Positions 8,953 through 23,838 of a stretch of DNA of 31,137 nucleotides are shown here, in pieces (the first letter of the stretch is position 1; each line of letters begins with the position of its first letter). The DNA comes from a virus. The stretch spans positions 1-31,137 of the IMG/VR virus record IMGVR_UViG_3300027754_000305; one strand, 5' to 3'. A model generated the notes under the pieces. That model was not told the DNA's origin. It saw nothing but the letters and a program-made list of their open reading frames with translations, and did not search any database. The position numbers were made by a program, and so were the translations under genes.

Positions 8953-9525
8953 GGTTTTATCAGGTGTTAGAAAGGTTCCGGTGTAGTTTGTTGAAGGATC
9001 GAGGGATGAAAAAAGCGTCACTCCGTCCATCTCGCCGGTGCGGCAGAGTGCGGTGGAGTGCAGGGCGGTCACCTGGCCGGAGGCATTGCGGACGACGGCA
9101 GGGGAAAGGTCTTCGTAGGATTTCCACTTGGCCTTGCCGGCATCCGTCCAGCGCAGGTCCTTGTAGATGATCCCCACATTCTCGCGGCACTCCGCCGAAG
9201 CGAACGCGGCCACCTCGCGGGGCTCCTGCGCCAGCCAGGCATCATAGGCCGCGCTGCCCACTTCATGCTGGCAGACGGTGTTATGGGAAAAGTCCAGGGC
9301 CAGCCGATCCCACCGGCGCTTCTGCTGCTCGGCAGCAAAGACCGCCAGCGTGTGGCCATCCACCGTTACCTTGCCGCGCCGTGTCTCCGTCGTGCCCCAG
9401 GGGCAGACCAGCAGTTCATTCGGCGGCTCCGTGGCGGAGGCATCCACCTGCGCAGCCGCAAAACACAGCACCTCCTCAGTCTTGTCAGACGAGGGGGTTG
9501 GCTTGGCGCGGGCAGGTTTGGGCAT
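8431..9525 (-). CDS. I: Mu gpI-like prohead protease with scaffold domain
   Basis: This encodes 364 residues. The start at 9525 is chosen because AAGGG lies about 8 bases upstream; an in-frame ATG at 9540 lacks this. The protease half contains RLALDFSHN (D78-H81), the Asp-x-x-His motif of the Mu I protease family. Residues after about 190 are Glu/Ala-rich helix and end with LGISEDRFKAFKAAQ, the typical scaffold tail. It processes and organises the prohead. It is the first gene of the leftward late operon and lies 38 bases beyond the putative late promoter. An internal start may give a free scaffold. Confidence 0.88.
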   Translation of the reverse strand: MPKPARAKPTPSSDKTEEVLCFAAAQVDASATEPPNELLVCPWGTTETRRGKVTVDGHTLAVFAAEQQKRRWDRLALDFSHNTVCQHEVGSAAYDAWLAQEPREVAAFASAECRENVGIIYKDLRWTDAGKAKWKSYEDLSPAVVRNASGQVTALHSTALCRTGEMDGVTLFSSLDPSTNYTGTFLTPDKTMLLELLTKMLTKAGVTVPADATEETIAALASDYCDAAEETKEEETPAAPDVAALSATVTELAEKLTLLSAELTSIKDGTGAPTPAQRRADLVAEATRQGKVIPLSAAEIEQLPIEVFSSLVANLGVTVPTDHKVGTAAQETVTTFSAEDITVMKQLGISEDRFKAFKAAQAAK

Positions 9526-9532
9526 CGCCCAC

Positions 9533-9549
9533 CCTTGCACGCCGCAAGG
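9533..9549. other. Short hairpin in protease leader
   Basis: CCTTGC at 9533-9538 pairs with GCAAGG at 9544-9549 across a 5-base loop. On the minus-strand transcript the 3' arm (GCAAGG with the following G) carries the AAGGG used as Shine-Dalgarno for the protease start at 9525, so folding would hide it. No U-run follows, so it is not a terminator. Confidence 0.4.
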
Positions 9550-9550
9550 C

Positions 9551-9841
9551 TTACCTGCATCTTAGGGGTGTATCGGAGTGCTTGGATTTGACCCTTTCCT
9601 GTCGTTTTGACGGCAAAGATTCCTTGGCACGCTTGATGCAGACACTGCATGGCCCACGTCCGCTGTTGCAGCGCTTGCACTTGCTGCAATCTTTGCATGC
9701 CAGGCAGGTGCCGTCGTGCGCGGGGCGGCAGACCATCTCGCGCTTGGGAACTGGCGCGGGTTTGGCTGGCCTGGGCTCGGTCGCAGGTGGTGCGGCCTGC
9801 GTTGCGCAGAGTAGCAACAGCAGTGAGCAGAGGCGGATCAT
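9551..9841 (-). CDS. Secreted cysteine-rich small protein
   Basis: This encodes 96 residues, starting at the ATG at 9841 that overlaps the upstream stop by one base; an ATG 11 codons earlier would spoil the signal peptide. MIRLCSLLLLLCATQA is a clear Sec signal, cleavable around residue 16. The mature part has a Pro-rich linker and then nine or more cysteines in short CxxC-type spacings (CLACKDCSKCKRC, CSVC), suggesting metal binding or disulfides, and ends basic. It is the third gene of the repressor operon, so it is probably made in lysogens. No family is recognised. The late promoter overlaps its 3' end. Confidence 0.7.
   Translation of the reverse strand: MIRLCSLLLLLCATQAAPPATEPRPAKPAPVPKREMVCRPAHDGTCLACKDCSKCKRCNSGRGPCSVCIKRAKESLPSKRQERVKSKHSDTPLRCR
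9564..9600 (-). promoter_or_regulatory. Putative phage late promoter (left arm)
   Basis: Read on the minus strand this 37-base element matches the one at 22535-22570 at about 32 of 37 columns with one gap. The shared blocks are AGGAAAGGGTCAA, AAGCAC and ATACACCCCT. The last block supplies a -10-like GATACA. It lies inside the 3' end of the Cys-rich gene and 38 bases upstream of the protease ATG. In Mu a late promoter also lies in front of I and needs an activator instead of a good -35; the missing -35 here fits that idea. Confidence 0.65.
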
Positions 9842-10323
9842 CAGAGGGAATAGGTATATCCGCAGCCTCGGCATTTACGATGGCCTTTGGTCGCTCCTAG
9901 CAGCCTACCAAGAAGAAAGAGCACTCCAAGAATTAACGCGACGCCGAATGCCTTTCCTCCATCAGAACCGGCAATCCCTCCTGCTCCCATGAGACAACCA
10001 CCCACCAGGAACAGCGGCACGGCCATGAAGATTAGAAAGAGACAGCCTAGTCCCTGCGCCGCATAATCATTGCGGCGGATCATGCGGAAGTCGGTTCCCT
10101 GGCACATGGGGCATACCGCCTGGCCCGCAGGACGGACCCCGCTGGCCGCCTCCGCCTGTCGTGCAAACTGTTCTAACGTTTGTTCCTCCGCCTCCGCAGC
10201 TTTACGTTGCCGGTGCTGTTCCTTCTTTAATTCCAGCGCCGCTTTGCGCTTCCGCTGCGCCTTTGTGGGCTTTCCCCAAAACGCGGTCCACATGCGCTGC
10301 CAGATGCTTGGTGCTTCGTTCAT
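9841..10323 (-). CDS. Membrane protein with split zinc ribbon
   Basis: This encodes 160 residues. An N-terminal basic coiled coil (residues 15-60) is followed by CPMC (71-74), then two hydrophobic segments (about 91-115 and 122-142), then CRGCGYTYSL at the C-terminus. The two CxxC pairs could together bind one zinc with the membrane hairpin between them. Its start overlaps the repressor stop in an ATGA arrangement, so it is co-translated with the repressor and probably expressed in lysogens. The function is unknown; a superinfection-exclusion or host-modifying role is a guess from its location. Confidence 0.72.
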   Translation of the reverse strand: MNEAPSIWQRMWTAFWGKPTKAQRKRKAALELKKEQHRQRKAAEAEEQTLEQFARQAEAASGVRPAGQAVCPMCQGTDFRMIRRNDYAAQGLGCLFLIFMAVPLFLVGGCLMGAGGIAGSDGGKAFGVALILGVLFLLGRLLGATKGHRKCRGCGYTYSL

Positions 10324-10838
10324 GTTTTCGGCTTGGGTTTGACTTTGAATTCAGGCGAGTCTTCAGCTACCTTCAGTTTTTCGACGCTAGAGGCGTCCCT
10401 ATCATTAGTGGACGCTGGTGGATTCTTCGCCAGCATATTATGCTGCAAAATTTTAAGCAATGTCACTGCTTGGTTCAACAGTTTGGTTCTTTCCTCTCCA
10501 CTGGCATCCTCTGCTTCGATAACTAAATCGGCCAAGAGCCTGGCCGCATTTTTTGGAAACATGGCGGCATGCCTAAGTGTTAAATCTTCGACCTTGTCAC
10601 GCTCTGGCCCGCCAAATTCTGAGCCGAGTAGCCATCCCACTGTGACTCCACATGACGCCGCAATGGAGTCAAGAACATCAGGCTTTGGAACGCGTCCTAG
10701 CTCATATCGGGCATAGCTCTGCTGCGCCATCCCCAACTTCTGTGCGAAGGCGCGCTGATTCAATGGACCACGCAGGGACCTTATGCGCTCGACAAAAATA
10801 ATCGCGCTTGACCCTTTTTCTTTGTTGACTGACTTCAT
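10320..10838 (-). CDS. XRE-family phage repressor (Mu c analogue)
   Basis: This encodes 172 residues from the ATG at 10838; the frame stays open further upstream but would then overlap the divergent small gene. The N-terminus holds a Cro/C1-type helix-turn-helix (about residues 26-52, RAFAQKLGMAQQSYARYELG), then GVTVGWLLGSEF, as in classic XRE regulators. The C-terminal half is helical, with a charged tail, and lacks the Ser-Lys autoprotease features of LexA/CI-type repressors. It diverges from a Ner-like gene across only 36 bases, the usual lysis-lysogeny switch layout. It probably represses the early promoter and is co-transcribed with two cargo genes. Confidence 0.85.
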   Translation of the reverse strand: MKSVNKEKGSSAIIFVERIRSLRGPLNQRAFAQKLGMAQQSYARYELGRVPKPDVLDSIAASCGVTVGWLLGSEFGGPERDKVEDLTLRHAAMFPKNAARLLADLVIEAEDASGEERTKLLNQAVTLLKILQHNMLAKNPPASTNDRDASSVEKLKVAEDSPEFKVKPKPKT

Positions 10839-10852
10839 TTCGGTGTCATAAT
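10825..10852 (+). promoter_or_regulatory. Putative early promoter (sigma-70 type)
   Basis: TTGACT at 10825-10830 and CATAAT at 10847-10852 are separated by 16 bases, giving an expected start point near 10859, just before the small HTH gene at 10875. The promoter lies over the 5' end of the divergent repressor gene, so the repressor or the Ner-like protein could act here. Confidence 0.55.
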
Positions 10853-10874
10853 CCTCGCGTAACTCGATACATCT

Positions 10875-11045
10875 ATGACCCATCCCAAAAAAAGCAAGCG
10901 GCGGAAGCCGACCATCACCCGAGCAGCCCAGGAGTTGGGTGTCACTCGGGTCCATCTCAGCTTCGTGATCCACGGACACCGCAGCAGCCGCAGTCTCTCT
11001 GCCCGCTATCAGGCCTGGCTCAAGCAGCAGGACGGCACGCCATAA
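10875..11045 (+). CDS. Small HTH protein, Ner-like early regulator
   Basis: This encodes 56 residues, very basic at the N-terminus (KKSKRRK), followed by a helix-turn-helix: ITRAAQELGVTRVHLSFVIHG (residues 14-34, here split across the two helices), then RSLSARYQAWLKQ. The size, HTH and position as first rightward gene opposite the repressor match Mu Ner, which turns down early and repressor transcription. It starts 36 bases from the repressor start and immediately downstream of a good sigma-70-like promoter. Ner homology at sequence level is not certain; a Cro-like role is the functional inference. Confidence 0.75.
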   Translation: MTHPKKSKRRKPTITRAAQELGVTRVHLSFVIHGHRSSRSLSARYQAWLKQQDGTP

Positions 11046-11113
11046 TTTCCCACCAAGGAACCCCTCTCCCCCAATACCAACACCACCAACAACAAACCCA
11101 CGACCAGACCCTT
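11046..11113 (+). promoter_or_regulatory. A/C-rich leader (representative)
   Basis: This 68-base interval between the Ner-like and ParB-like genes has few G residues near its 3' half and is made of CCAACA/CACCAACA words with no Shine-Dalgarno before the start. Comparable leaders precede starts at 12496, 12791, 12945, 15660, 18111, 23297, 24226 and 27849 on the plus strand and 4878, 5358 and 8396 on the minus strand. They look like unstructured translation-initiation leaders. Confidence 0.5.
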
Positions 11114-12124
11114 ATGACTCAAACAAACCCCGCCTCCACCACCAAATCCATCCCGCTCAGCGAAGACTCTCTCAAATGGCACCCTTTCCTTGAGGGCATT
11201 CCGCTGATGGCGGAAATTGGAAAATCCAAACCCCGTGGAGCGAATGTAAAAGACTTTGATGCAGATCGCAGCGAGGAACTGAGCGGCTTCGCTGAAGAAA
11301 CCGGCCAGGTGTGGGCGGCATTTCAACATGATGTCAGCGCCAATCTGGCGGAGCCCATCCTGGTCTGCCGTGGTCCAAAAGGAACCACTTACGTAGTTGA
11401 TGGCCGTGACCGGGTAACGGCCCTTCGTCTGGCTGGACATGAAACGGTGGCGGCAGAAGAGGTGGAACCGGAAGACGCAGAGAGGATCATCCGCAGCAAA
11501 ACCCTGCGCAAACATCTGACCAAGGGGGCGAGGGCCTACATGGCCGCTCTCCTAAACCCTTCGCTGGCAGGAAAAATGGCGGGGAATTCTTCCAATAAAC
11601 CGGGAAATTCAATTGTGAACGATTCACAATTGGTCTCCGAGGAGGCGGAAAGGGTGCCGGAATCGCATACCGCCCTGGCTGCCCAGTGGGGGTTTGACCG
11701 GGCACTTTTGAGCACCGCCTACAAGGTCATCGCCGCCCTGAAAGAGGAGCAGGAGATGATCGACTGCGACGAGACTTACAAGCCAAAGACCAAACCTCAT
11801 GAATTTGTAGTCAAGATCTTCGCTGGCACCGGCCTCGGTCAAATCATTCCTGGCCTCGCCGCCGTGCGCGCCGCCGCGCTGGGCAAAAAGCCGCCTGCCG
11901 ATCCTGACGCTACGCTCCTGGAGGAGAACGCCATTCTGAAAAGCTACCGGCGGATGAGTGCGGCAGTAGGCACCATTTTCAACCAGGCAAAAGGCTACAA
12001 CAAGCTCAGCAAAGAGCAACGCGCTGCCATACAAAATGCCACGGAGAAGGGACTCAAGGAAGCCCATGTCACCTTCAAAAACATGCTCGGCAAATGTCTG
12101 AAAGATATGGAGCTGCAGCCATGA
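11114..12124 (+). CDS. ParB-like N-terminal domain protein
   Basis: This encodes 336 residues. The region around residues 80-118 contains TYVVDGRDRVTALRLAG, the signature of the ParB/sulfiredoxin-like nuclease-fold domain (the DGxxRxxAxxxxG motif). The middle (about 165-215) holds a possible HTH, and the end is a helical, coiled-coil-like stretch. In phages such proteins serve as DNA-binding partition or regulatory factors or nucleases. It lies between the Ner-like and transposase genes, where Mu has none. A 68-base A/C-rich leader without Shine-Dalgarno precedes the start. It ends in an ATGA overlap with the next gene. Confidence 0.75.
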   Translation: MTQTNPASTTKSIPLSEDSLKWHPFLEGIPLMAEIGKSKPRGANVKDFDADRSEELSGFAEETGQVWAAFQHDVSANLAEPILVCRGPKGTTYVVDGRDRVTALRLAGHETVAAEEVEPEDAERIIRSKTLRKHLTKGARAYMAALLNPSLAGKMAGNSSNKPGNSIVNDSQLVSEEAERVPESHTALAAQWGFDRALLSTAYKVIAALKEEQEMIDCDETYKPKTKPHEFVVKIFAGTGLGQIIPGLAAVRAAALGKKPPADPDATLLEENAILKSYRRMSAAVGTIFNQAKGYNKLSKEQRAAIQNATEKGLKEAHVTFKNMLGKCLKDMELQP

Positions 12125-12453
12125 AAGTCGTCAAGCACATACGGAAGCCATGTGGCGCCGAGAGCGAGTTAATCCGTGAACTCCGAAAACTGGACATTGA
12201 TGCCGAGGTGGAAGTTTGGCCCGTGCGGAGACGTCTTGAAGCTGGGGTGGGGCTGGATACATGCATGCGGGTTTTGCTCCGTCTCTCAGGCAAACGTTTC
12301 CATTATTGGGACGTGCCCCGCTACACATTGATTTCAGAAATGTGGGAGCACAATGCCAGTCAAATCGGTGAAGACATTGAGCGCATCCTGGAAAAGGCCC
12401 GCGGAAAGGCCCGCCTCAAGCACGCGGCCAAACATCTCAACTTCGCCGCCTAG
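12121..12453 (+). CDS. Hypothetical early protein
   Basis: This encodes 110 residues. The ATG at 12121 overlaps the ParB-like stop, so it is translationally coupled; an in-frame ATG 27 bases earlier lies within that gene and is less likely. The protein is basic with helical ends (IGEDIERILEKARGKARLKH). It has no membrane segment or recognised motif. The coupling suggests that it works with, or is stoichiometric to, the ParB-like protein. No function can be assigned. Confidence 0.65.
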   Translation: MKVVKHIRKPCGAESELIRELRKLDIDAEVEVWPVRRRLEAGVGLDTCMRVLLRLSGKRFHYWDVPRYTLISEMWEHNASQIGEDIERILEKARGKARLKHAAKHLNFAA

Positions 12454-12495
12454 CCGCACCGGCAGTTTCAACCCCAAACCCAACACCCGCACACC

Positions 12496-12759
12496 ATGAG
12501 CATGACATCCACCGGCCTGAAGGCCTTTACCACCCACGGCGAGCCGCTGCACACCTGCCCGATCTGCCGCCGGGGGAATTTCACCGCCAGCGGACTGGCC
12601 CGCCACCGTTGCGCGGTGCGTCCGCCGCTCGTCCGCGAGTCCTCCGCCGGCACGTTCCGCTGCACGGTCTGCCACGAAATGAAATCCGACCGGCACGCCA
12701 ACACCAAGGTCTGCACCGGTTGCGCCAAAGCCAGTCCCATTAGCTGGCTGGCCCATTGA
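12496..12759 (+). CDS. Small double zinc-finger protein
   Basis: This encodes 87 residues with two cysteine/histidine clusters. The first, CPIC at residues 21-24 followed by HRC around 37-39, resembles a C2HC or C2H2 finger. The second, CTVC near 56 with VCTGC near 72-76, resembles a treble-clef ribbon. This is likely a zinc-stabilised nucleic-acid or protein-binding factor. An A/C-rich leader (CCCAAACCCAACACCC) precedes the start. The family is not recognised. It lies in the early operon among small regulators. Confidence 0.68.
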   Translation: MSMTSTGLKAFTTHGEPLHTCPICRRGNFTASGLARHRCAVRPPLVRESSAGTFRCTVCHEMKSDRHANTKVCTGCAKASPISWLAH

Positions 12760-12790
12760 TCCACCCCACACCCAACAGAACCCAACACCC

Positions 12791-12943
12791 ATGAAATTCA
12801 GTCCCTGCAACTACTACCTCATCGGCTGCCTCACCGGAGCCATCTACATGCTCATCTTTGTGATCCTCTCCGACCGCAAGCTCGAAGAAGGCAGCAAAGC
12901 CGCCCGCGCTCAAGCCCAACAAACAACCCAAACCCAACACTAA
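12791..12943 (+). CDS. Small single-pass membrane protein
   Basis: This encodes 50 residues: one hydrophobic segment (about residues 8-27, LIGCLTGAIYMLIFVIL region) followed by a charged, Gln-rich cytoplasmic-type tail. The start follows an A/C-rich leader (ACACCCAACAGAACCCAAC), and the stop is separated from the next ATG by one base. It has no recognised family. Its early-operon position is unusual for a membrane protein and might point to a role in superinfection exclusion or membrane anchoring, but this is speculative. Confidence 0.55.
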   Translation: MKFSPCNYYLIGCLTGAIYMLIFVILSDRKLEEGSKAARAQAQQTTQTQH

Positions 12944-12944
12944 C

Positions 12945-13505
12945 ATGACACCGATCGCAGACACAGACATGGGCTCCGCCCCATCCACTCCCGCCGCCCC
13001 TGGTCAATCCGAGCACCCTGTTATCAGCATGCTCAAGATGATGGGCAAGCCCGTCAGCTTCGCGTTCCTGAAAAAGAACCTCGCCCTGCGCGGCGTGGAC
13101 ACACAAGGAGCCATTCAATATGTGATGGCCCTCTGGCAGAAAAACACCATCGCTATGTGGCGTTATGACCTCATTGAAGGCGGCATTCGCCTGAGCGATG
13201 AAACGCTGATCAGCCTGGCGAATGAGAAGTCCGCCACGCCCGCCACCAATGGCCACATCAACCGCGGCGTGCGCGTCATCACGGAAAAGATGAGCATTCA
13301 GAAACCGCTCTCCCTCTCCCCCGGCACCCGCGCCAACCTGGGCGAAGTGCAGAAGGCCCTGGGCTTGCAGGATCTGGATGCCGCCGTCGTCGTCTGCGCT
13401 GCCCTGGGGGCCACACTGCTGGAATACCTGAATTCCAACGGCACCGACCGCTGGCTCACGCTGGTGGACCACGAAATGGAGCAACAGGTCTCCGTGCTTC
13501 TCTAA
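12945..13505 (+). CDS. Hypothetical early protein, possible winged helix
   Basis: This encodes 186 residues. After a disordered Pro/Ala-rich start, residues 25-80 (ISMLKMMGKPVSFAFLKKNL onward) look like a winged-helix domain with two strands ending MWRYDLIEGGIRLSD. The C-terminal part is helical with LQDLDAAVVVCAALGATLLEYL. It has no transmembrane topology strong enough to call. It is placed two genes before the transposase. The function is unknown; DNA binding is possible. Confidence 0.68.
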   Translation: MTPIADTDMGSAPSTPAAPGQSEHPVISMLKMMGKPVSFAFLKKNLALRGVDTQGAIQYVMALWQKNTIAMWRYDLIEGGIRLSDETLISLANEKSATPATNGHINRGVRVITEKMSIQKPLSLSPGTRANLGEVQKALGLQDLDAAVVVCAALGATLLEYLNSNGTDRWLTLVDHEMEQQVSVLL

Positions 13506-13537
13506 ACGATTTGTCACCAACAAAGCCCGCCCATCTT

Positions 13538-13777
13538 ATGCAATCACAGAATGACCAGATTCTCGCCCACCTCAGCAGTGGCGCGGCGCTCACCAGCCTT
13601 CAAGCCATTGAGTTGTATGGCTGCACGAGATTGGGCGGGCGCATTTACGACCTGCGCTCGCAGGGACACAAGATCGACTGCGAACTCATCGCCGTCCCTG
13701 CGCGCGGCGGGCGCACCGCCCACGTCGCCCGCTACACCATCCCCCGCCCTGCCCCCGTGCAGCTCGAACTCATCTAA
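13538..13777 (+). CDS. Small winged-helix DNA-binding protein (HTH_39-like)
   Basis: This encodes 79 residues from the ATG at 13538; a TTG 27 bases upstream is in frame but less likely. NDQILAHLSSGAALTSLQAI is followed by GGRIYDLRSQGHKIDCELI, the pattern of the short winged-helix domain found in many phage proteins (HTH_39 type), where the R-I-Y-D-L-R segment marks the recognition helix and the last strands form the wing. It lies 9 bases before the transposase gene and may be an accessory regulator or accessory DNA-binding factor for transposition. Confidence 0.72.
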   Translation: MQSQNDQILAHLSSGAALTSLQAIELYGCTRLGGRIYDLRSQGHKIDCELIAVPARGGRTAHVARYTIPRPAPVQLELI

Positions 13778-13786
13778 TAGCATCTC

Positions 13787-15616
13787 ATGACTCCCTCCGA
13801 AAAAGCCGCCGCCGTCGCCCGTGTCAACGAGTTCAAACTCGCCGGACACAGCCTAAATCAATCCTGCGCCATGGCAGGCGTGGCCAAGGGCAGCTATGTG
13901 CGGTGGAGTTTGAAGCTGGAGGACCACGGCCTGATCCGCGACCAACGCACCGAGTGCAGCGGACGCAAAGCCAAGTTCCAGCTCACCAGCGCGGAGATCG
14001 ACGCACTGCGCGGGCTGACGCTGAAGCATGGGAGCTTTGCTTTCGCCGTGGAAATCTTTTCACGCTCGGAAGCCTGCACCCACGAGACCAGCGAGCTGAT
14101 CATCCGGACCATCGCCGAGGCCCAGCGCGCCGAGCGCCAGCCGAAGTGGCCGCTCTCCCTGCGCCGCCTCGCCCGCAGCTCCGATCTGGAGGACGATATG
14201 ATCCGCGGGGCCAAGGCCGTCGATTCCCACGCCCAGGGCAGCACGAAAGGCATGTTCTGGGAAACCGCCGAAGGCGAACTCCGCCCGCTCCAGCCGATGT
14301 CTGTCTGGCAGCTCGATGACTATTCCACCAACCAGCCCTACGGCATCCCCACGCTGGAAAATGGGAACCGCCTCTGCCGCCAGATCCTCGCCGCGCTGGA
14401 TGTCTATGCCTCCGGCTGGCTCGGCGTGCATCATGTGGGCCGCGAGCGCGATGCCTACCGCGTGGAGGACATCCTGCGTTTCATCCTGCATCTCATCGAC
14501 AGCCACGGCACCATGCCGGAGGCGCTGATGCTGGAGCAGGGCCGATGGAAAGCCGACGCCATCCTTGGCATCGAGATCCCCGACGGCAGCGGCCGCCGCT
14601 GGGGTGCGCTCAATGATCTCTTCCACGTCGTCCACGGATTCACCAGCCGCCACAAGGCCGCACTGGAATCCAATTTCCGCATTCTGCAAACCGCGCTGCG
14701 CCTCAGTGGCCGGGACATCGGCAGTTATCGCGGTGAAATGGAATCGGCCACCAAGTCGTATTTGAAAGTCCAGGCCGGCAAACTCTGCCCCACCAAGGCC
14801 GGATTCCTCACGCAGGCCGACAGCTCCCGCATCCACGAGGAAGCGATGCAATACCTCAACGCCCGCGCCAAGTTCCGCAAGGCCTTCGGTGGTCGGCACC
14901 TGGTGCCGGATGCCCTGCTCAATGAAGCCTGGACCCCGCGCCCACTTCCCCAGGGCGAGCGCTGGAGATTCCACCCCGTCAAGAAGGAGGCCACCGTCAA
15001 AGGCAACTTCGTGGAATGCCGCGCCGGCGAACACTACGAGGGCCACTTCATTTTCCGCGTCAATGGCGTGACCGATGACATTTATTTCCAACCAGGGCAC
15101 CGCATCCTGATCGCTTTCGATCCGTTGCATCTGGAACTCGGCGCGATGATCGCCAACGCCGAGCGCGGCTCTCTCAATCGTCCCGGCTGGCGCATGGGGC
15201 AGAACCTGATCACTGCCCCGCCGTATGAAATGACGCCACAATTTTCCTTCCGTCCGCGCAACGTCGAAACGGCCCCGCAGAAAAAAGCCAACGCCGCCGT
15301 CGTCAGCATGTTCAAGGCGATCAAACCCTTCGCCAAGGCCGGACTGGCCATCACGCATGTGGCGGATGGACGCGGGCAGAGTGCGGAAATCCGCAACCAC
15401 GAGACCCCCGACCAACTTTCCCAACGTCAGAGCACCGTGGAAACGCCGCGCAATGGCTCCGCGATAGCTCCGCGAACGCTCGCAACCCGCGAATCGACTC
15501 AAGACACCACCCGCCGCAGCACCGCCCCTGAGACGCGAAATTCGCGGGGCTTCTCTGATGACGATGAAGCCGCCCTCGCCGCCGAGGAGGCCGAGATCGC
15601 CGCCAAAGGGTGGTAA
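13787..15616 (+). CDS. A: MuA-type DDE transposase
   Basis: This encodes 609 residues, close to Mu A (663). The N-terminal HTH (residues 8-41, HSLNQSCAMAGVAKGSYVRW within it) is followed by a helical region, then the RNase H-like core: VWQLDDYSTNQPYG (D177/D178), LAALDVYASGW at 201-211, LMLEQGRWKAD near 247-256, and RHKAALESNFRIL with E294. These would supply the catalytic acids; the second position appears as Glu (E250) where MuA has Asp336. A beta-barrel region and a disordered, charged tail follow. It carries out strand transfer during integration and replicative transposition, with the ATPase encoded next. Confidence 0.88.
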   Translation: MTPSEKAAAVARVNEFKLAGHSLNQSCAMAGVAKGSYVRWSLKLEDHGLIRDQRTECSGRKAKFQLTSAEIDALRGLTLKHGSFAFAVEIFSRSEACTHETSELIIRTIAEAQRAERQPKWPLSLRRLARSSDLEDDMIRGAKAVDSHAQGSTKGMFWETAEGELRPLQPMSVWQLDDYSTNQPYGIPTLENGNRLCRQILAALDVYASGWLGVHHVGRERDAYRVEDILRFILHLIDSHGTMPEALMLEQGRWKADAILGIEIPDGSGRRWGALNDLFHVVHGFTSRHKAALESNFRILQTALRLSGRDIGSYRGEMESATKSYLKVQAGKLCPTKAGFLTQADSSRIHEEAMQYLNARAKFRKAFGGRHLVPDALLNEAWTPRPLPQGERWRFHPVKKEATVKGNFVECRAGEHYEGHFIFRVNGVTDDIYFQPGHRILIAFDPLHLELGAMIANAERGSLNRPGWRMGQNLITAPPYEMTPQFSFRPRNVETAPQKKANAAVVSMFKAIKPFAKAGLAITHVADGRGQSAEIRNHETPDQLSQRQSTVETPRNGSAIAPRTLATRESTQDTTRRSTAPETRNSRGFSDDDEAALAAEEAEIAAKGW

Positions 15617-15659
15617 AACATTCTCCCCCAAAACCCAACAACAAACCCAACAACCCAAC

Positions 15660-16682
15660 ATGACCCGAACCCAACAAGAAACCGAGCTGCAAGCCATCGC
15701 TAAAAAAATCCTCGCCTACAAACAAGCGGAGGATCTGTCACTCTCGCAGCTCATCGAAACTCTGCCCGAAGTCGGCAGCGACAAAACGCTCAATAAAATT
15801 GCCCGCGGTGATTTCTCCGAACTCAACTTTGAGCAATGGCTCGGCAAATACCGCGCCGCTGCAATGAAGATCGACGCGGACGACAGCGACGACCTGGTCA
15901 ATGCCCCCAAGACCGTCACCATCCCGATCCTGGACAACCTCACGCCCACGCTCAAACTCCGCCAGCTCTTCATGCGCCTGCGGAAAAACGAAGGCGAGAA
16001 CTGCCGCCTGGGCGTGCTCTGCGTGGATGGCGGAGGAGGCAAGACCACCGCCGCCAAAGCCCTGCAAGCCCGTTGGAAATCCCAGGTCCTGCGCATCGAG
16101 TGCCTGATCGTCTGGGATGACAAACCCGCCTGCATGCTCTTCGATCTCTGCGCCGCGCTCGGCATCAAAGACATTCCCACCAGCCGCCACCAACGCTATT
16201 GCAAAGTGCGCGATGCCCTCATCACCGGCAAGGCCCGCCGTTGCCTGATCTTTGATGAGGCCCATTACATGGGGCCCAACTGCCTCTCGTGCCTGGTCGG
16301 CCTGATCAATGAAACGCCAGGGGAATTTATCTTCCTGTGCAAGCCCCTGCTTTGGAAGAAACTGGAGCGCACCGCCTTCGAAGCGTGCGACCAGCTCAAG
16401 GTGAACCGGCTGGAGGAACTCGTGAAACTCACGGAGATGCCCTCCAAAGATTACGAGCGTTATCTCATCGCCCGCCTGCCTCACCTGGAGAACGACCGCG
16501 AGCCGCTCGCGGAGGTGGTGCGTGAGATCACCCGCCAGGCGCGCGACTGCGGCCACCTGGCCTTTGCCCGTGACGTGGTGAAGCGCGCCCAGCAGCTCAC
16601 CAAGACCACGGAGCCCAGCGATGTGACCACGGATCATGTGCTCGCCGCCGTGGAAGAAGTCGCCCGCAAACTCGGCAAATAG
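15660..16682 (+). CDS. B: MuB-type AAA ATPase, target DNA activator
   Basis: This encodes 340 residues; Mu B has 312. The ATG at 15660 follows a 43-base A/C-rich leader of repeated ACCCAACA units; longer in-frame starts lie inside the transposase gene. An N-terminal HTH-like domain (residues 25-65) precedes the AAA core: Walker A DGGGGKTT (K128, T129) and Walker B CLIFDE (D199, E200). The first Walker A glycine position is Val122, an oddity. MuB binds target DNA with ATP and delivers it to the transposase, giving target immunity. Its order directly after A matches Mu. Confidence 0.88.
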   Translation: MTRTQQETELQAIAKKILAYKQAEDLSLSQLIETLPEVGSDKTLNKIARGDFSELNFEQWLGKYRAAAMKIDADDSDDLVNAPKTVTIPILDNLTPTLKLRQLFMRLRKNEGENCRLGVLCVDGGGGKTTAAKALQARWKSQVLRIECLIVWDDKPACMLFDLCAALGIKDIPTSRHQRYCKVRDALITGKARRCLIFDEAHYMGPNCLSCLVGLINETPGEFIFLCKPLLWKKLERTAFEACDQLKVNRLEELVKLTEMPSKDYERYLIARLPHLENDREPLAEVVREITRQARDCGHLAFARDVVKRAQQLTKTTEPSDVTTDHVLAAVEEVARKLGK

Positions 16683-16693
16683 AACCCACGACT

Positions 16694-16990
16694 ATGAGAC
16701 CCAAATATTTCTACGCTCATTGTTCCGGCTACATTTGCAGCATCGCATCCGATGTGATGCAGGCCACCGGAGTCTGTTTCTACTTCACGGCGGACGGTCC
16801 GGTGGATGCCCCTCGGGCCGCCGCAGCCATCGCCCGGGATCTCCTGCCCGGTGCCTGGATCAACCACGTCGTCATCGACCACATGGACGAGCACGGCGAC
16901 CCGCTGCCGGCCGTCGCCATCGTGCCCACCCCTCCGCGCCTCAAGCGCACCTTCAAAACCAAACCACAACCTCAGCCCCAACTCCTATGA
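16694..16990 (+). CDS. Hypothetical early protein
   Basis: This encodes 98 residues, starting 11 bases after the ATPase stop and ending in an ATGA overlap. It is mixed alpha/beta with a Pro/Lys-rich C-terminal tail (residues 78-98). It has three cysteines near the N-terminus but no CxxC pair. I do not recognise a family. The position corresponds to the Mu semi-essential early region, which holds small host-takeover genes. Confidence 0.62.
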   Translation: MRPKYFYAHCSGYICSIASDVMQATGVCFYFTADGPVDAPRAAAAIARDLLPGAWINHVVIDHMDEHGDPLPAVAIVPTPPRLKRTFKTKPQPQPQLL

Positions 16991-17520
16991 TTGCCAAGCT
17001 CCCATCCACCAAACCCACCCTCACACCCGCCGAGCAAGCCGCCTGCGATGCTTATTCCAATGCGCTCTGGAGCGCGAAGCATGCCAAGAAGTTCAAGAAC
17101 ACCGTGATTGAGATCGCCCTCCGCCTGGGCCGGATCGCCACGGAGCGCGGATTCATCGCCACCGCGGATGCCACCAGCTACCCCATGCCCAGCCTGGAGG
17201 AATGGGATGCGCGCCTCTACCTGCAAGTGCTCGCCGTGGACAAGCTCTCCGCGCATGGCGACAGCCCTATCGCTGCCTCCCGCATCGCGGAACTCGAAGC
17301 CGCGCAGGCCGTCCTCCAACAGATGCGCGAGATCACGCCCAGCGTCGTTTCCTACCATGAGACCGCCGCCTGGATGAAGGAAGCCACGGACTATTTCAAA
17401 GCCGCCGGCGTCATCGTCCCTCAGAAGGCCGTCACCGTGAAATTCTACGAGACCGCCGCCGCCCCCGTCCGCCCCAAACTCCCCAAGGCTCCCAAGGCCA
17501 AGAAAGGAGACCATCCATGA
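16987..17520 (+). CDS. Hypothetical early protein (helical)
   Basis: This encodes 177 residues. The ATG overlaps the upstream stop, and the gene ends in an ATGA overlap with the next, so three genes are coupled. It is mostly helical, with Ala-rich stretches (residues 95-125), and ends in a Pro/Lys-rich basic tail (KAPKAKKGD). It lies where Mu carries Gam, a DNA-end-binding protein of 174 residues. The sequence does not look like Gam, so no function is claimed. Confidence 0.68.
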   Translation: MIAKLPSTKPTLTPAEQAACDAYSNALWSAKHAKKFKNTVIEIALRLGRIATERGFIATADATSYPMPSLEEWDARLYLQVLAVDKLSAHGDSPIAASRIAELEAAQAVLQQMREITPSVVSYHETAAWMKEATDYFKAAGVIVPQKAVTVKFYETAAAPVRPKLPKAPKAKKGDHP

Positions 17521-18086
17521 AACTCCTCACCCGCCCCCAGCAGACGGCCATCATCATGCTGGCAGACCAGGCCTACGAGCACCAGGTCAACGAGGGCTTC
17601 CACACGCCGCGCGGTGACATGGCCAAGACCCGCGACCAGTCCGACTGGCGGCATGCCATGCAGCGCAAATGCACCGGCCACGACAGCCTGACCATGTGCG
17701 TCAACGAACACTTCGAGCACCTCATGCGCGATTTCTCCCTCCTGGCCGGCCGCGATGCCGAGGCCTTCGAGTGGGGCATGAAATGCGGGCCGCTCCCCGA
17801 CGGCGCGCCGGAAGCCCCCGCCACCAAGCACGAGCTGCCGGACAGCCTCCACAACCGCTCCCTCTGGGCCTTCAAGATCAAGACGCTCTGCATCAGCATG
17901 CGGGTGAATTTCCCAGCCTACCCGCTCGGCATCCTCAAGCGCCAGAACCCCGCCGCCCCCAAGACCAGCATCGAAGCCTATTCCGCGCAGGCCATCCGCA
18001 AGGCCTTCTTCAGTCTCAACTTCAAAGCCCAGCGCGCCGCCAAAGCCCAGAACCAGGCCGAAGCAGAGGCCAACTGTCCATTCTGA
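17517..18086 (+). CDS. Hypothetical early protein, GemA-like position
   Basis: This encodes 189 residues, preceded by a good Shine-Dalgarno (AAAGGAG, about 7 bases upstream). The segment DWRHAMQRKCTGHDSLTMC (residues 42-60) and the following helix recall Mu gp16/GemA (DUF1018) proteins, which modify host gyrase and host gene expression, but the match is loose. The C-terminal part is basic and Ala-rich. It is translationally coupled to its upstream neighbour. Treat as unknown with a weak GemA hint from layout. Confidence 0.65.
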   Translation: MKLLTRPQQTAIIMLADQAYEHQVNEGFHTPRGDMAKTRDQSDWRHAMQRKCTGHDSLTMCVNEHFEHLMRDFSLLAGRDAEAFEWGMKCGPLPDGAPEAPATKHELPDSLHNRSLWAFKIKTLCISMRVNFPAYPLGILKRQNPAAPKTSIEAYSAQAIRKAFFSLNFKAQRAAKAQNQAEAEANCPF

Positions 18087-18110
18087 ACCCACACCCACAC
18101 CAACAAACCC

Positions 18111-18557
18111 ATGATCGACCAGCGACCCACCATCAACCTGCGCACCGGCAACCAGATCGACACCAGCAAACTGGCCGAGATCGCGCCCGGTGTCTTCACC
18201 GGAGACATTCCCATGCTGGAATTGCCCCGCTACGGCGTGACGAAATTCGTGAAAGACCGGGACGGCATCTACCGCGCCATCCTGGTGACGTTTCCCGATT
18301 ATGTGAAACTCAACCAGAAGACACTCGACCAGCTCGGCATCAAGATCAGCACCCGCGTGCTGCGCTCCCTGGTCTATGCCGGCTTCGTCAAAGGCTCCAA
18401 GGTCTCTCCCTTCCAAACGGAATTCTGCGTGGAGTCTCTCTACCGCCACCGCCGCAAAACCCTGGAGCGCGGATTCTGGAACGAACGCCGCCTCACCGAC
18501 TACTCGCTCGGCTGGGATGCCGTGCTCAACGGCACCGTCCAGGGAGAGGAGGACTAA
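18111..18557 (+). CDS. Hypothetical protein with possible winged helix; regulator candidate
   Basis: This encodes 148 residues. The middle (residues 67-105, LNQKTLDQLGIKISTRVLRS then GFVKGSKVSPF) has the shape of a winged helix. The C-terminus is aromatic and charged. The gene follows an A/C-rich leader and lies late in the early operon, where Mu places Mor and C, the middle and late activators. As the phage seems to use unusual late promoters, this is one of two candidates in the window for their activator. That is inference; no sequence match to Mor/C is evident. Confidence 0.65.
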   Translation: MIDQRPTINLRTGNQIDTSKLAEIAPGVFTGDIPMLELPRYGVTKFVKDRDGIYRAILVTFPDYVKLNQKTLDQLGIKISTRVLRSLVYAGFVKGSKVSPFQTEFCVESLYRHRRKTLERGFWNERRLTDYSLGWDAVLNGTVQGEED

Positions 18558-18561
18558 ACCC

Positions 18562-18978
18562 ATGATCATTCTGCCCTCACTCAAAGCCCGTCCCTGCCAC
18601 AACTGCAGCACGCCCACCTATGCCAGGCACATCGTCAAAGGCCCCACCAAACGCAGCAAACCCTCCCGCCTGCCGCTCTGCGCCTGCTGCCAGCTCGGCC
18701 CGCAGAAGTCCGTGGAAATCCTCCCCACCATCCCCTACTTTGGAAAAGACGGCACCGCCGCCGCCACCGTGCCAGACACCACCAAACGCACCCAGGTCCT
18801 CGCCTGGCTCAAAGACCGCCAGAACAAAACCTGGAAGGCCCTGGGAAATAGCTACTCGGCCAAGATGAAGAACTGGGCCGCCGCTCTCAAAATCCCCGTG
18901 CCGGATCTGACCGCGCTGCGCGGCGGGCCGAGGAAGAACGATACGCTCTGCCGCGAGGCGGGGCAGAAAGACGCCTGA
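18562..18978 (+). CDS. Hypothetical zinc-ribbon protein; regulator candidate
   Basis: This encodes 138 residues from an ATG with a strong AGGAGG site about 10 bases upstream. CHNC at residues 12-15 and CACC at 40-43 would form a zinc ribbon. The rest is basic and helical (LAWLKDRQNKTWKALGNSYS), with a Gly/Arg-rich end. Zinc-ribbon plus basic helix suggests nucleic-acid binding, so this is the second candidate for a late transcription activator. It ends overlapping the next start by one base (TGATG). The family is not recognised. Confidence 0.66.
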   Translation: MIILPSLKARPCHNCSTPTYARHIVKGPTKRSKPSRLPLCACCQLGPQKSVEILPTIPYFGKDGTAAATVPDTTKRTQVLAWLKDRQNKTWKALGNSYSAKMKNWAAALKIPVPDLTALRGGPRKNDTLCREAGQKDA

Positions 18979-19292
18979 TGAACACTGAGACTCCAAGCCC
19001 CGACTCGTTGGCAGCAGCACATGGTTCTGAGTTCCGGGTGCGAATCACTCGGCTCTCAGTCCTGCCGCCGAAAGAGCCTCTATTCTCGGAGCAATGCACG
19101 AACGTCTCAATCGTGGATGAAGCCGCTGGCGAGTTCTTGGAAATCGAGCAGCAAAGCGGGCGCACAGATGTGAAGTCGCAGACCATCGCAATCTCGCCGG
19201 AAGAATGGCCTGCGCTGAAACGGGCCATCGAGCAACTGCTGGCAGACTGCGAAACTCAGAACACCCAACCACAGCCGACCCAATCCAAATGA
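18978..19292 (+). CDS. Hypothetical protein
   Basis: This encodes 104 residues. Beta strands early (FRVRITRLSVLPP) are followed by EFLEIEQQSGRTDVKSQTIAISPEEWPALKRAIEQLL in residues 52-88, a composition common in small conserved proteins of phages and plasmids. It has no motif that fixes a function. It overlaps its upstream neighbour by one base and its downstream neighbour by four, continuing the early operon. Confidence 0.65.
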   Translation: MNTETPSPDSLAAAHGSEFRVRITRLSVLPPKEPLFSEQCTNVSIVDEAAGEFLEIEQQSGRTDVKSQTIAISPEEWPALKRAIEQLLADCETQNTQPQPTQSK

Positions 19293-19642
19293 ATAATCCT
19301 ACCGTGAAAGACTCCCACCAATTCCAAGGCGCGAGCAGGGGGTCGGATGATGGGGCTGGTTCTCTCAGATACCATTCGCTTTGGGCTGTATGGGATGATG
19401 ACGCAACCGAGATACTTGCCGTTGAGAGCGAACGCCGCGAGGCCGTGCGATTTATGGAGCGCGACCAATGTGCCACTTATCACCTCGCGGAATACACCCT
19501 AAAAACATCCGAGATTGTTGGAGAGAACATGAATTCCCCAGAAGCAAAATCTGGGACGATCACTAGTCCGCTCGATGTCGCGCCGAAACTCCTGGCCTTT
19601 CCATTGCGGGCGGTTCCATCTATCTTGTCGGCACACTCCTGA
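19289..19642 (+). CDS. Hypothetical protein
   Basis: This encodes 117 residues starting in an ATGA overlap. An N-terminal polar stretch is followed by LWAVWDDDATEILAVESERREAVRFM (residues 31-56, continuous alpha/beta pattern) and a weakly hydrophobic end. It has lower GC than its neighbours in places. The family is unknown. It is the last gene before the F gene, 6 bases upstream of that start. Confidence 0.58.
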   Translation: MNNPTVKDSHQFQGASRGSDDGAGSLRYHSLWAVWDDDATEILAVESERREAVRFMERDQCATYHLAEYTLKTSEIVGENMNSPEAKSGTITSPLDVAPKLLAFPLRAVPSILSAHS

Positions 19643-19648
19643 TTCCCC

Positions 19649-21496
19649 ATGATCACCACTCCCATCCCCCACACTGAAGCCGCGCGCGCCATTGCTGACA
19701 AGCCTGCGGTGACCCGGGCGGTATTTGCGGAGATGCCGGCGGAGCTGAGGGCGATGGCGTTTACGATTACGGGGATCGAGGATCTGAAGGTGCTGCAACG
19801 TGCCCGCGACCTGATCGCGGAGCTGCCGAAGGGTGGTGATTACAACGAGATCAAGGCGGATCTGCTCAAGACGATCAGCCCCTACATGGCGAATGACAAG
19901 TCTGCGGAGATCCGGGCGGAGCTGCTGCTGCGGCTGCACGGCGGGCAGGCTTATGCCGCTGCGCAATACCGGGTCATGGACCGCCAGCGCGATGCGTTCC
20001 CTTACTGGCAATATCTGAGCTTTGGCGATGACCGCGTGCGGGCCAGTCACAAGGCGCTGGATCACAAAATCTTTCCGGCCAACTCGCCCTTCTGGGACCT
20101 GCACTATCCGCCCTGGGAATTTCTCTGCCGGTGCCGGGTGGCTCCGCTGACCCGCCGCGATGCCATGGCCATCCGCGATGCCGACCGCAAGCTCCCCGCC
20201 GTGAAACGCCGCTTCATGGAAGGTGTGCTCCTGCAAAAGGCCGAGGTGGATCATGTGATTTTTTCGCCCAACGATGACGGCACGACCGCCAGCCTGGTGC
20301 CGCCGAGCGTGGCAGATCCCGCCAAAGGCTACCAGTGGCACCCGGGCACGCTGGGAGTTCCCCTGGAGAAACTCAAGGAGGGCTTCGACCAGGACATCTG
20401 GCAGCAGTTCGAAGACAAGGCCAAGGCCACCAAGCTGGGCAAAAGCCAGACGCTCTGGCAGGGCATGCAGCTCCAGGGCAAAGCCTACAAGGCCCCCGCC
20501 CCCAAGGAAACCATCACCACGGCGAAACGCGCCGCCATCCTCAAGGCGCTGGGCATGACAGAATCCGACTACGCCGCCTGGCAGGCCGCGCAGAAGGCGC
20601 TGCCGGATCTGGGAGGTGCTCCCACGCCGACGCCAACACCAACGCCTGCGCCGGTTCCTGCGGTGAAGAAGGCAAAACCTGCTCCGAAGCCCAAGCCCTC
20701 CGTGCTCTCCGTGCTCGACCAGGTCACCGCCCTGCATAATGCCAAAGCTGCCGACCGCCAGCCTTATGTGGATGCCGTCGCCAAGGCCACCGGCGAGATT
20801 CAAGACTTGATCCGCCAACTCAATGCGATGACCTCCTCCAATGCTGCCTATACAGCGCTTTACGGGGATTACACCCTGGCGATGGATAAACTGAATAACG
20901 CCACCGCCAGCTTCAACGCCTATAAGAAGAAGGAACTTGTGGAGTTCAGACGGATCATCGCCCTGGACCCATCGAAACGTGGCTCCATCAACCACACGGC
21001 CGGACCAAGCCTGACGAAACTGGCGGACGAGTCTGTGGACTTGTTGCTTTCCGTGGCTCACAAGGATCTTCTGCCGGCGGTGGCTGTGAATTTCCTGCAC
21101 AAGGCCGGACGCGCCCAATATTCCAAGGTGCTGCGAGCGGTGCAGATCAACAAGGGCAGCGGCGTGCGGACGGGAGTGCATGAGCTGGGCCACTGGATGG
21201 AGATGCACAACCCTGCGACGCTGCAAAAGCTCATCGACTTCCGCACCAGGCGCGCAGGCGCTGAGCAACCACGGAGGCTTTCCGCCATCACCGGAAACAA
21301 AAATTACGATGCTACCGAGATCGCCATCGAGGATAAATTCCTCAATGCCTACATGGGGAAGGTTTACCCTGGGGACCTGGCATCCGAGATCCTGACCATG
21401 GGTCTGGAAATGTATCTCTACGAGCCTGGGGAATTCGCCACGAAGGACCCCGACTATTTCACTTTCATCCACAACCTCCTCCACCAAATCCCATGA
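19649..21496 (+). CDS. F: Mu F-like head morphogenesis protein fused to a zincin-like domain
   Basis: This encodes 615 residues. Residues 1-220 carry the MuF signature: YWQYLSFGDDRVRASHKALD from about 119, then a Pro-Trp-Glu-Phe-Leu-Cys-Arg-Cys-Arg run near 157-165. F is a minor head protein packed inside the shell beside the portal. A Pro/Thr/Lys-rich linker (321-350) joins it to a C-terminal domain with GVHELGHWMEMH; HELGH is at 511-515, and ASEILTMGLE about 60 residues later could give the third zinc ligand, as in gluzincins. Mu F lacks this domain. It may be an injected or self-acting protease. The next gene overlaps by 4 bases. Confidence 0.85.
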   Translation: MITTPIPHTEAARAIADKPAVTRAVFAEMPAELRAMAFTITGIEDLKVLQRARDLIAELPKGGDYNEIKADLLKTISPYMANDKSAEIRAELLLRLHGGQAYAAAQYRVMDRQRDAFPYWQYLSFGDDRVRASHKALDHKIFPANSPFWDLHYPPWEFLCRCRVAPLTRRDAMAIRDADRKLPAVKRRFMEGVLLQKAEVDHVIFSPNDDGTTASLVPPSVADPAKGYQWHPGTLGVPLEKLKEGFDQDIWQQFEDKAKATKLGKSQTLWQGMQLQGKAYKAPAPKETITTAKRAAILKALGMTESDYAAWQAAQKALPDLGGAPTPTPTPTPAPVPAVKKAKPAPKPKPSVLSVLDQVTALHNAKAADRQPYVDAVAKATGEIQDLIRQLNAMTSSNAAYTALYGDYTLAMDKLNNATASFNAYKKKELVEFRRIIALDPSKRGSINHTAGPSLTKLADESVDLLLSVAHKDLLPAVAVNFLHKAGRAQYSKVLRAVQINKGSGVRTGVHELGHWMEMHNPATLQKLIDFRTRRAGAEQPRRLSAITGNKNYDATEIAIEDKFLNAYMGKVYPGDLASEILTMGLEMYLYEPGEFATKDPDYFTFIHNLLHQIP

Positions 21497-22014
21497 CCAC
21501 TCTTCACATCCACGGATCTGTCTGCACCTACACGGAAGGAAGCTGGGCCTGCCCGGACACCACGCTGGAGCGCATTCTGAACAACCTCATGCCCGACGGG
21601 GGATTCAGTGCTTCCGATCCTCATCCTGATCAGAGCGCGGTGGATCTCGTGCTCGGTTATTTCCCCGATGCAGATGTCGTGGATGTCGCCCCTGCTCTCG
21701 AAGGGGAGGAAGGCCCGGAGCTGCCGTCTGCCCTCGGTGCCCTCACCTTCACACCTGACTCCGTGCTCATCACTGTGGACGGGACGCGGCGGCGGCTGAC
21801 GTGGGATATGGGAAACGGGCACCCACGCAACGCTGTGCTAGATGGCTGGCCGGTGGCAGACATTCGAATGAATGAGATCGCGGCGCGGCATTTCCTCTGG
21901 ACGCATAACCTGCTGCCGGACAGTGTCGCGGAGTCGCCGCGGGTGCTCGGCGAGGCGGATGCGGCCGCGGCGCTGGCGAATCACCTGCGGGCCATGGATG
22001 AAGCGAAAATTTGA
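21493..22014 (+). CDS. Hypothetical partner of the F-zincin protein
   Basis: This encodes 173 residues, acidic, soluble, mixed alpha/beta, with no signal peptide. Its ATG overlaps the stop of the F-zincin gene by 4 bases, giving strict translational coupling, and G follows 3 bases after it. In Mu, F and G are adjacent, so this gene is an insertion exactly behind the added protease domain. That suggests a regulator, inhibitor or chaperone of the domain. The sequence gives no family match, so the role is inferred from placement. Confidence 0.68.
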   Translation: MTTLHIHGSVCTYTEGSWACPDTTLERILNNLMPDGGFSASDPHPDQSAVDLVLGYFPDADVVDVAPALEGEEGPELPSALGALTFTPDSVLITVDGTRRRLTWDMGNGHPRNAVLDGWPVADIRMNEIAARHFLWTHNLLPDSVAESPRVLGEADAAAALANHLRAMDEAKI

Positions 22015-22017
22015 ACC

Positions 22018-22536
22018 ATGCAAGTCACCGTCACCAGGACCGACAATATTTCCCCCCGCCTGCGCAGGGCGGTGAAGGAGCTGGAGAACCGCAAGCCGAT
22101 CACGGAGGCCATGGGGCTTTACCTGACGAGCTGGACGGTGCGGGCGTTCGATGACTCCAGCCTGCGGCCTGCTCCCTGGCCGAGCCGCCAGGGAATCCTG
22201 CCGCGGGCGCGGCCACTGCTGAAGCTGTCCGGCTCGCTGTGGCGGTCGATCAAATCGCACAGCACGAATGACCGGGTGACCATTTCCTCAGATCGTAAGT
22301 ATGCGGCCATCCACCAGCTCGGCGGGACGACCTCGCCGCACATCATCAAGGCCCGCAATAAGAAGGCGCTCTTCTGGCCTGGGGCGGGGCATCCGGTGAA
22401 GAGCGTGAAGCACCCGGGGAGCCGAATTCCGGCGCGGCCCTTCATGCCATTTCTAGGAAGCGGGGGCATGATGCCGGCAGCGAGGGAGGGCGTGGAGGAC
22501 GTGATCCGGGTGAAAGTGCTGGAAATGCTCCAGTAG
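22018..22536 (+). CDS. G: Mu G-like virion morphogenesis protein
   Basis: This encodes 172 residues, matching the phage virion morphogenesis family (Mu gpG/tail completion). The pattern is LLKLSGSLWRSI near 68, SSDRKYAAIHQLGG (residues 90-103) and RIPARPFMPF at about 139-148, all hallmark segments. It acts at head-tail joining or tail completion. It lies two genes after F, as in Mu except for the inserted gene. Its TAG stop is immediately followed by the putative late promoter, so G and F are upstream of it. Confidence 0.85.
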   Translation: MQVTVTRTDNISPRLRRAVKELENRKPITEAMGLYLTSWTVRAFDDSSLRPAPWPSRQGILPRARPLLKLSGSLWRSIKSHSTNDRVTISSDRKYAAIHQLGGTTSPHIIKARNKKALFWPGAGHPVKSVKHPGSRIPARPFMPFLGSGGMMPAAREGVEDVIRVKVLEMLQ

Positions 22537-22570
22537 GAAAGGGTCAATCTAAGCACCCTTATACACCCCT
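22535..22570 (+). promoter_or_regulatory. Putative phage late promoter (right arm)
   Basis: This 36-base element starts at the stop codon of G and matches the minus-strand element at 9564-9600 in about 32 of 37 columns: AGGAAAGGGTCAA, AAGCAC and ATACACCCCT are shared. TATACA at 22560-22565 would serve as -10; no TTGACA-like -35 is present at the usual distance. It lies in a 117-base gap before the lysis module. The word TTACCTGCA follows directly and occurs in the opposite orientation at the same place in the left copy. Confidence 0.65.
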
Positions 22571-22653
22571 TACCTGCAAAGGAGGCCGCCGCGTGGTCAA
22601 GTCTCGCGATGCGTAGCCTATTCCTTGCCGCCGCCGACTTTGAATCGGAAAAT

Positions 22654-22980
22654 ATGTCCATTCTCAAATGGATCGCCATTTCCTCCATGATCTTAAATCT
22701 GATCGTGGGCGCGCACTGGCTGATCTATCTGCGCAAGGAAAACACCCGGGACAATATCATCCCCGCCTCCGCCAAAGACCTGGAGGACTACAAGGAGGCG
22801 AGCGCGAAGAGCCACCACGATGCCGAGCTGCGGCTCATCCGGCTGGAGGCCACGGAAAAGCAGACGGGCAACCTGCTCAGTAAAATGGACAAGACGTTGG
22901 AAAGCATGGGGACGACGATCCGGGCGATTGCCCATGACGTGGCGAAGATAGAGGGACAAATGGAAGGGACCCGGCCATGA
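22654..22980 (+). CDS. Membrane-anchored coiled-coil protein (DUF2730-like)
   Basis: This encodes 108 residues. The start at 22654 follows CGGAAAAT; an in-frame ATG 45 bases earlier would add a polar stretch before the membrane anchor and is less likely. A transmembrane segment (residues 5-25) is followed by a charged coiled coil (45-100). The layout resembles the DUF2730 proteins of Mu-like phages and also i-spanin (Rz) proteins. It is the first gene after the right late promoter. Function, lysis or packaging accessory, is not settled by sequence. Confidence 0.72.
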   Translation: MSILKWIAISSMILNLIVGAHWLIYLRKENTRDNIIPASAKDLEDYKEASAKSHHDAELRLIRLEATEKQTGNLLSKMDKTLESMGTTIRAIAHDVAKIEGQMEGTRP

Positions 22981-23273
22981 GTGCGCAGCGCAATGAGGAA
23001 TGCCGGCAGGATGTGCTGTCCTGGCTGGCGGAGCGGCCCAGCCTGAAGTTCCGGGCGGACTACATCCACACGAGTTTGAAACGGAAGGGGCATGACTACA
23101 CGGACAAGGAAGTCCTCTGGGCTGGGGAATTCCTCTCGGACTTCCCGGTGGCCCTCCAGGAGGGAGGCAAGGAGCACCAGCTCGTCGAGTGGGCTTTCGA
23201 GTCGCCATTTTCCTCCATGAAATGTTTCGGCATCACCCCGCACGGCCAGCTTTACGCCGAGCGGAATTCATAA
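22977..23273 (+). CDS. Hypothetical protein, winged-helix-like
   Basis: This encodes 98 residues, coupled to the upstream gene by an ATGA overlap. The segment RQDVLSWLAERPSLKFRADY followed by a short helix and DKEVLWAGEFL suggests a winged-helix fold, and the end ITPHGQLYAERNS looks like the wing strand. Similar small proteins occur in Mu-like late regions. No membrane segment is present. The function is unknown. Confidence 0.65.
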   Translation: MSAQRNEECRQDVLSWLAERPSLKFRADYIHTSLKRKGHDYTDKEVLWAGEFLSDFPVALQEGGKEHQLVEWAFESPFSSMKCFGITPHGQLYAERNS

Positions 23274-23713: not shown

Positions 23714-23838
23714 AGCACACTCTGCAAATGCTGGCGATTCTCACGGTGCTGGTGCTCGGCGCGGCCGGGGTGGCTTATGTCATCACGCACTTCATCTGCG
23801 CGCCCGTGGAGGTCGGCCCCTACCCACCTGAAAAATGA
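23710..23838 (+). CDS. Small membrane protein of the lysis module
   Basis: This encodes 42 residues: basic start, one transmembrane segment (about 7-28) and a short tail. Its start overlaps the upstream stop and its stop overlaps the next start, so three lysis-region genes are coupled. The size and topology fit an antiholin, pinholin or accessory protein. No family is recognised. Confidence 0.6.
   Translation: MKHTLQMLAILTVLVLGAAGVAYVITHFICAPVEVGPYPPEK

Follow-up and report, generated by a model that had tools for sequence, protein, structure and literature searches.

Matched late-promoter-like elements at the ends of an inverted central block in a Mu-like phage probably of Verrucomicrobiota

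The two late gene modules of a Mu-like phage are each preceded by a copy of one short element, and the two copies, A and B, are probably co-regulated late promoters, equivalent to PI and Plys of Mu, that respond to a phage-encoded activator specified by a middle gene, most likely 18111-18557. A 13-kb inversion in the window, by which we mean the whole stretch of 31,137 nucleotides analysed here, begins and ends exactly at these two elements. The inversion had been missed in the preliminary description of this DNA and was seen through the gene order of related phages. That the elements act as promoters, where transcription starts, and which protein binds and activates them are inferred from the sequence.

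The window, an IMG/VR record, is a Mu-like phage, with genes for a repressor, a ParB-like protein, a MuB-type ATPase, MuF, a gpG-like protein, a protease, a gpT-like capsid protein and a terminase (Table 1). The ParB-like protein (11114-12124) is the first gene product of the early operon and is conserved in most relatives. Single-protein searches with the transposase, terminase and capsid protein recovered no close relatives from viral or genome collections, and relatives were obtained only via alignment of distant capsid proteins. These capsid relatives, at 34-40% identity, include prophages of Verrucomicrobiota genomes (LW23, Haloferula, Geminisphaera, Opitutaceae, Chthoniobacteraceae, and others), and the host of the window phage therefore probably belongs to this phylum. 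Duplicate handles were counted once (LW23 is G002, G007 is G023, and G005 probably stands for the Haloferula prophage); the cultured strain Haloferula luteola YC6886 carries a phage of the G005 type. Several features of these genomes were recorded in passing. Two LW23 contigs, C9 and C10 (L107, L108), carry two prophages with identical match scores in one Verrucomicrobia genome, suggesting recent transposition. The G005 record contains a tyrosine-recombinase-type gene (23569-24168, L094; PF00589, 5e-29) just before its gpG-like gene. The Verrucomicrobiaceae MAG G027 has two contigs (C23 and C33; L145, L146) with terminases 47-51% identical to that of the window and a differently shuffled phage map, one with tail genes in the terminase arm and the other with the terminase near MuF; a clear matched element was not found in either contig.

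Table 1. Elements and genes of the window discussed in the text
Feature	Position	Strand	Remarks
Element A	9564..9600	-	Upstream of protease-capsid-tail arm; B-like sequence reaches 9556
Element B	22535..22570	+	Upstream of lysis-fibre-terminase arm; A-like sequence reaches 22578
Core of A, AAGCAC-N4-ATACACCCCT	9564..9583	-	Proposed -10 region
Core of B, AAGCAC-N4-ATACACCCCT	22551..22570	+	Proposed -10 region
Head maturation protease, first gene of left late arm	8431..9540	-	phrog_328, 4e-23; homologs in relatives
Small gene, reading frame through element A	9551..9874	-	ORF; homolog in G021
Central block	9601..22534		Three leftward genes including XRE-type repressor, then ParB-like, MuA, MuB, early/middle genes, MuF, gpG-like
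Candidate late activator, small conserved protein	18111..18557	+	Found in 20 records, among them all 14 fuller phages; predicted winged-helix DNA-binding domain
Virion morphogenesis gene (Mu gpG-like)	22018..22536	+	PF05069, 1.7e-15; directly upstream of protease gene in relatives
Small membrane protein, first gene of right late arm	22609..22980	+	ORF; comparable small gene in same slot of relatives
Second gene of right late arm, conserved lysis-terminase-arm marker	22977..23273	+	Homologs beside element in most relatives
Large terminase, late gene of right arm	28773..30413	+	Homologs; in relatives on opposite strand from protease arm, left of early block

Element A, read directly from the minus strand at 9600-9564, is AGGAAAGGGTCAAATCCAAGCACTCCGATACACCCCT, and element B, read from the plus strand at 22535-22570, is AGGAAAGGGTCAATCTAAGCACCCTTATACACCCCT. 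The preliminary description had reported the pair at these positions as alike in about 32 of 37 columns with one gap, and reading of the sequence confirmed it, with 32 columns matching. Blocks of 13, 6 and 10 residues recur in the same order together with three further columns; the longest exact stretch in common is 13 bp, the single-base gap sits between the AGGAAAGGGTCAA block and AAGCAC, and the spacing from AAGCAC to ATACACCCCT is four in both copies. BLAST across the whole window lengthens the match to 45 columns (82%), with a score of 46 and an E value of 8.5e-7. This likeness is far beyond chance. Other 220-bp pieces of the window have non-self matches scoring 40 at best, shuffled lysis-side gaps score no higher than 29, and a block scan of the 31 kb gives 29/29 at A and B only, compared with 17-19 in shuffled sequence, the other high-scoring rows being shifted readings of A or B. 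The same scan found no third copy in the window, whose record is linear and may be incomplete. Copy B is intergenic, its first bases overlapping the TAG stop of the gpG-like gene, while copy A lies within the tail of an annotatable ORF (9551-9874) and is not strictly intergenic. No sigma-70-like site was called at either element, as would be expected if the promoters are activator-dependent; the -10 assigned to the core, like any start position, is a guess.

Matched pairs also occur in the related phages. The stretches in front of the protease gene and of the lysis arm were compared phage by phage in the 13 phages in which both gaps were readable (the window included). A private pair was clear in 9 of them and weak in 3, with none in the remaining one. 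It occupies the same two sites, one separating gpG-like from protease and the other in front of the lysis-terminase arm. Scores of the clear pairs range from 37 to 77, as against maxima of 24-30 from 20 shuffles per phage that kept single-base composition only. In terms of pair score and shuffled maximum these are the window (46/29), G001 (37/26), LW23 (47/25), G020 (53/26), G021 (49/27), G005 (58/24, with 29/29 positions identical), G024c (68/30), G025a (59/27) and G025b (77/24). The weaker pairs are those of G019 (30/24), G024a (27/23) and G024b (33/24), and in G004 no clear pair was found between the protease gap and the lysis gap (25/28). In seven phages the pair is the top repeat of its gap across the entire phage. 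The sequence of the element differs from phage to phage; its places and its orientation to the module are constant. The exact motif of the window is absent upstream of the same genes in relatives and a private equivalent is present there.

Further copies are found where modules are arranged differently. In G023 the fibre and lysis genes follow the tail genes, and the second copy (33 bp, 94%) precedes them, oriented as they are transcribed. A third copy is present in each of LW23, G021, G024b and G024c, in front of a separately placed fibre operon and likewise oriented with transcription, and the genes behind these copies encode a protein of 216-317 residues paired with a long fibre protein, or the two fused. 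The window carries its fibre gene (25384-27555) inside the lysis-terminase arm, so that a third promoter would be superfluous. The private pairs of most relatives, and the third copies in some, give strong support to the earlier proposal of a single late regulon in which each module, the two being on opposite strands, has a promoter-like element of its own in front. About half of the phages have in common, at the place corresponding to the cores of A and B, a weak core, [CG]CAC-N5-[AT]TAG, which was scored on the sequences from which it was derived, so that its significance is only indicative, and which the window core fits only with one base less spacing. Another candidate for a group-wide motif, GGAAA(A)GGGT, was discarded, being enriched in some phages, present also in coding regions, and absent elsewhere. 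The only match of an exact-pattern scan of viral contigs (L002) falls in a methyltransferase/ParB-like coding region of an unrelated phage and is attributed to chance. In G024b (the copy at oriented 23940; L137/L138) and G024c (L139/L140) the element overlaps a hairpin and T-run, as if the terminator of the upstream operon and the late promoter occupied one stretch.

The positions of the elements correspond to those of known late promoters. In Mu, the C protein activates lys, I, P and mom, and a 10-bp match between lys and I is known (PMC4461284). When the regions upstream of lys and I were compared in the same way as the phage pairs, the top match was TCCCGCACCT, in agreement with that 10-bp match. 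On the Mu map I, at 18056, comes directly after G (17389-17859), and C is followed by lys and then by the terminase genes. The relatives' first element, between the gpG-like and protease genes, therefore occupies the place of PI, and their second, before the lysis-terminase arm, that of Plys. Given these equivalent positions and the comparison with Mu, we take A and B to be, most likely, late promoters that share an activator site. The elements could instead act at the level of RNA, as antitermination signals or translational operators in the late-operon leaders with one phage protein recognising both. They do lie a few tens of nucleotides before the first genes and are common to the operons, as nut- or put-like sites would be. 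However, the window copies fold no better than shuffles, several phages have a promoter-like core in common, and such signals would require promoters further upstream, whereas the stretch from the repressor-side genes to the lysis arm shows no sign of any. We regard this reading as unlikely.

The relatives also reveal what has happened to the window. In the 12 relatives with both arms, the terminase-to-lysis arm runs leftward and is followed by the repressor side; rightward from there lie ParB-like, MuA, MuB, the middle genes, MuF and gpG-like, with the protease, capsid and tail genes after them. The window has the whole segment from repressor-side genes through gpG-like in the opposite orientation relative to its two late arms, and A and B are the exact endpoints of this segment, each having exchanged one flank relative to the relatives' gene order. 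The gpG-like and protease genes lie on one strand in every record except the window (85 entries in which both genes were found, 73 of them distinct, hence about 72 others). A homolog of the small gene 9551-9874 adjoins the lysis-side element in G021, as the inversion predicts, and so marks the junction. Assemblers join on words of 21 or more, and the exact identity of A and B, at most 13 bp, is too short for this; a mis-join of the assembly at the repeat is thus unlikely.

The coincidence of elements and endpoints raises another possibility, in which a site-specific inversion system acts at A and B and flips the 13-kb early block as a switch, any promoter role being secondary or absent. The elements are inverted with respect to each other, and the block between them, seen in a single state in each record, is flipped relative to all relatives with its endpoints at the elements. 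On the other hand, no serine or tyrosine recombinase domain was found in the window in searches for PF00239 and PF00589, the flipped order occurs in no other record, and a flip would alter nothing downstream of A or B. The third copies follow the direction of transcription and the two copies of G023 face the same way, an arrangement required of promoters but not of inversion sites. On this sequence evidence late promoters fit best, and a recombinase switch is very unlikely. Hardly credible is the remaining alternative, that the repeats are intrinsic terminators of the upstream operon duplicated in the genome; a hairpin plus T-run does overlap the element in copies from G003, G024b and G024c, but A and B have neither a T-run nor a stable hairpin and other copies of the element family also lack the hairpin-plus-T-run.

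For the late promoters proposed here, two activators had been suggested, the products of 18111-18557 and 18562-18978. Only the first is conserved in all the fuller phages, with homologs placed between the homolog of 17517-18086 and MuF; no homolog of 18562-18978 was found in the relatives. A Mor/C protein (PF08765) was not found at E<=0.01 in the window, the relatives or their host genomes. The AlphaFold2 model of 18111-18557 (pLDDT 82) has its best PDB matches in Xis (Z 5.1) and BldC (Z 4.5) over about 50 residues, with no Foldseek match at E <0.001; Mor-like folds are not among the structure matches listed, and no sequence family match was found. The model appears to have in common with Xis and BldC (MerR-like) a winged-helix core of about 50 residues, and differs from them in an extra strand-rich N-terminal part and a C-terminal helix as well as in lacking a sequence family match. 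From its conservation and predicted fold, 18111-18557 is the strongest candidate for the activator. Divergence of the element is weakly correlated with that of 18111-18557 (Mantel test, rho 0.24, p 0.02); as a pointer to this protein co-divergence was set aside, because the correlation is higher for ParB-like, TerS and TerL and similar for MuF.

In the proposed mechanism, the middle-gene activator, most likely the predicted winged-helix protein 18111-18557, would bind the upstream block (AGGAAAGGGTCAA and its neighbours), and host RNA polymerase would then start at the weak -10-like core (AAGCAC-N4-ATAC), so that both late arms would be switched on together. Since the version of the element is private to each phage, the activator has probably diverged along with it. 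The 13-kb early block has been inverted through, or at, the elements; because each late arm keeps its element, we propose that the inversion was harmless to late expression and hence tolerated. It is possible, albeit tentative, that Mu-like phages of Verrucomicrobiota use private matched late promoters with a new, non-Mor/C winged-helix activator, and that these promoters double as joints at which blocks can be flipped or relocated while late control is kept. Both sides of such a system are open to test, the element being a defined DNA sequence present two to four times in each phage and the candidate activator a single conserved protein. With their fixed places and fast-changing sequence, the elements would offer about a dozen presumed activator-promoter pairs as a natural series, and the inversion between them suggests how phages with two late arms may reshuffle modules yet stay viable.

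The closest parallel is with the late promoters of Mu, Plys, PI, PP and Pmom, in that one common element precedes each late operon with no recognisable sigma-70 promoter. Mu also has promoters in the tail region (PP) and beyond it (Pmom), to which the further copy in the tail/fibre region of some relatives may correspond. The present phages differ from Mu in having no Mor/C homolog, in late arms on opposite strands, and in an element private to each phage, and their pairs, at 26-59 bp, are much longer and more alike than the 10-bp lys/I match; unlike the Mu set, the window has no third copy. As no Mor/C protein was found in the window or its relatives, the Mu mechanism serves as an analogy only. 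B3-type and Leptospira transposable prophages likewise have two oppositely transcribed arms split by regulatory genes and no Mor/C, as described in the passages of PMC8705779 searched, in which matched late elements are not mentioned. The window phage stands apart from those prophages in its probable host phylum and in the inversion of its central block.
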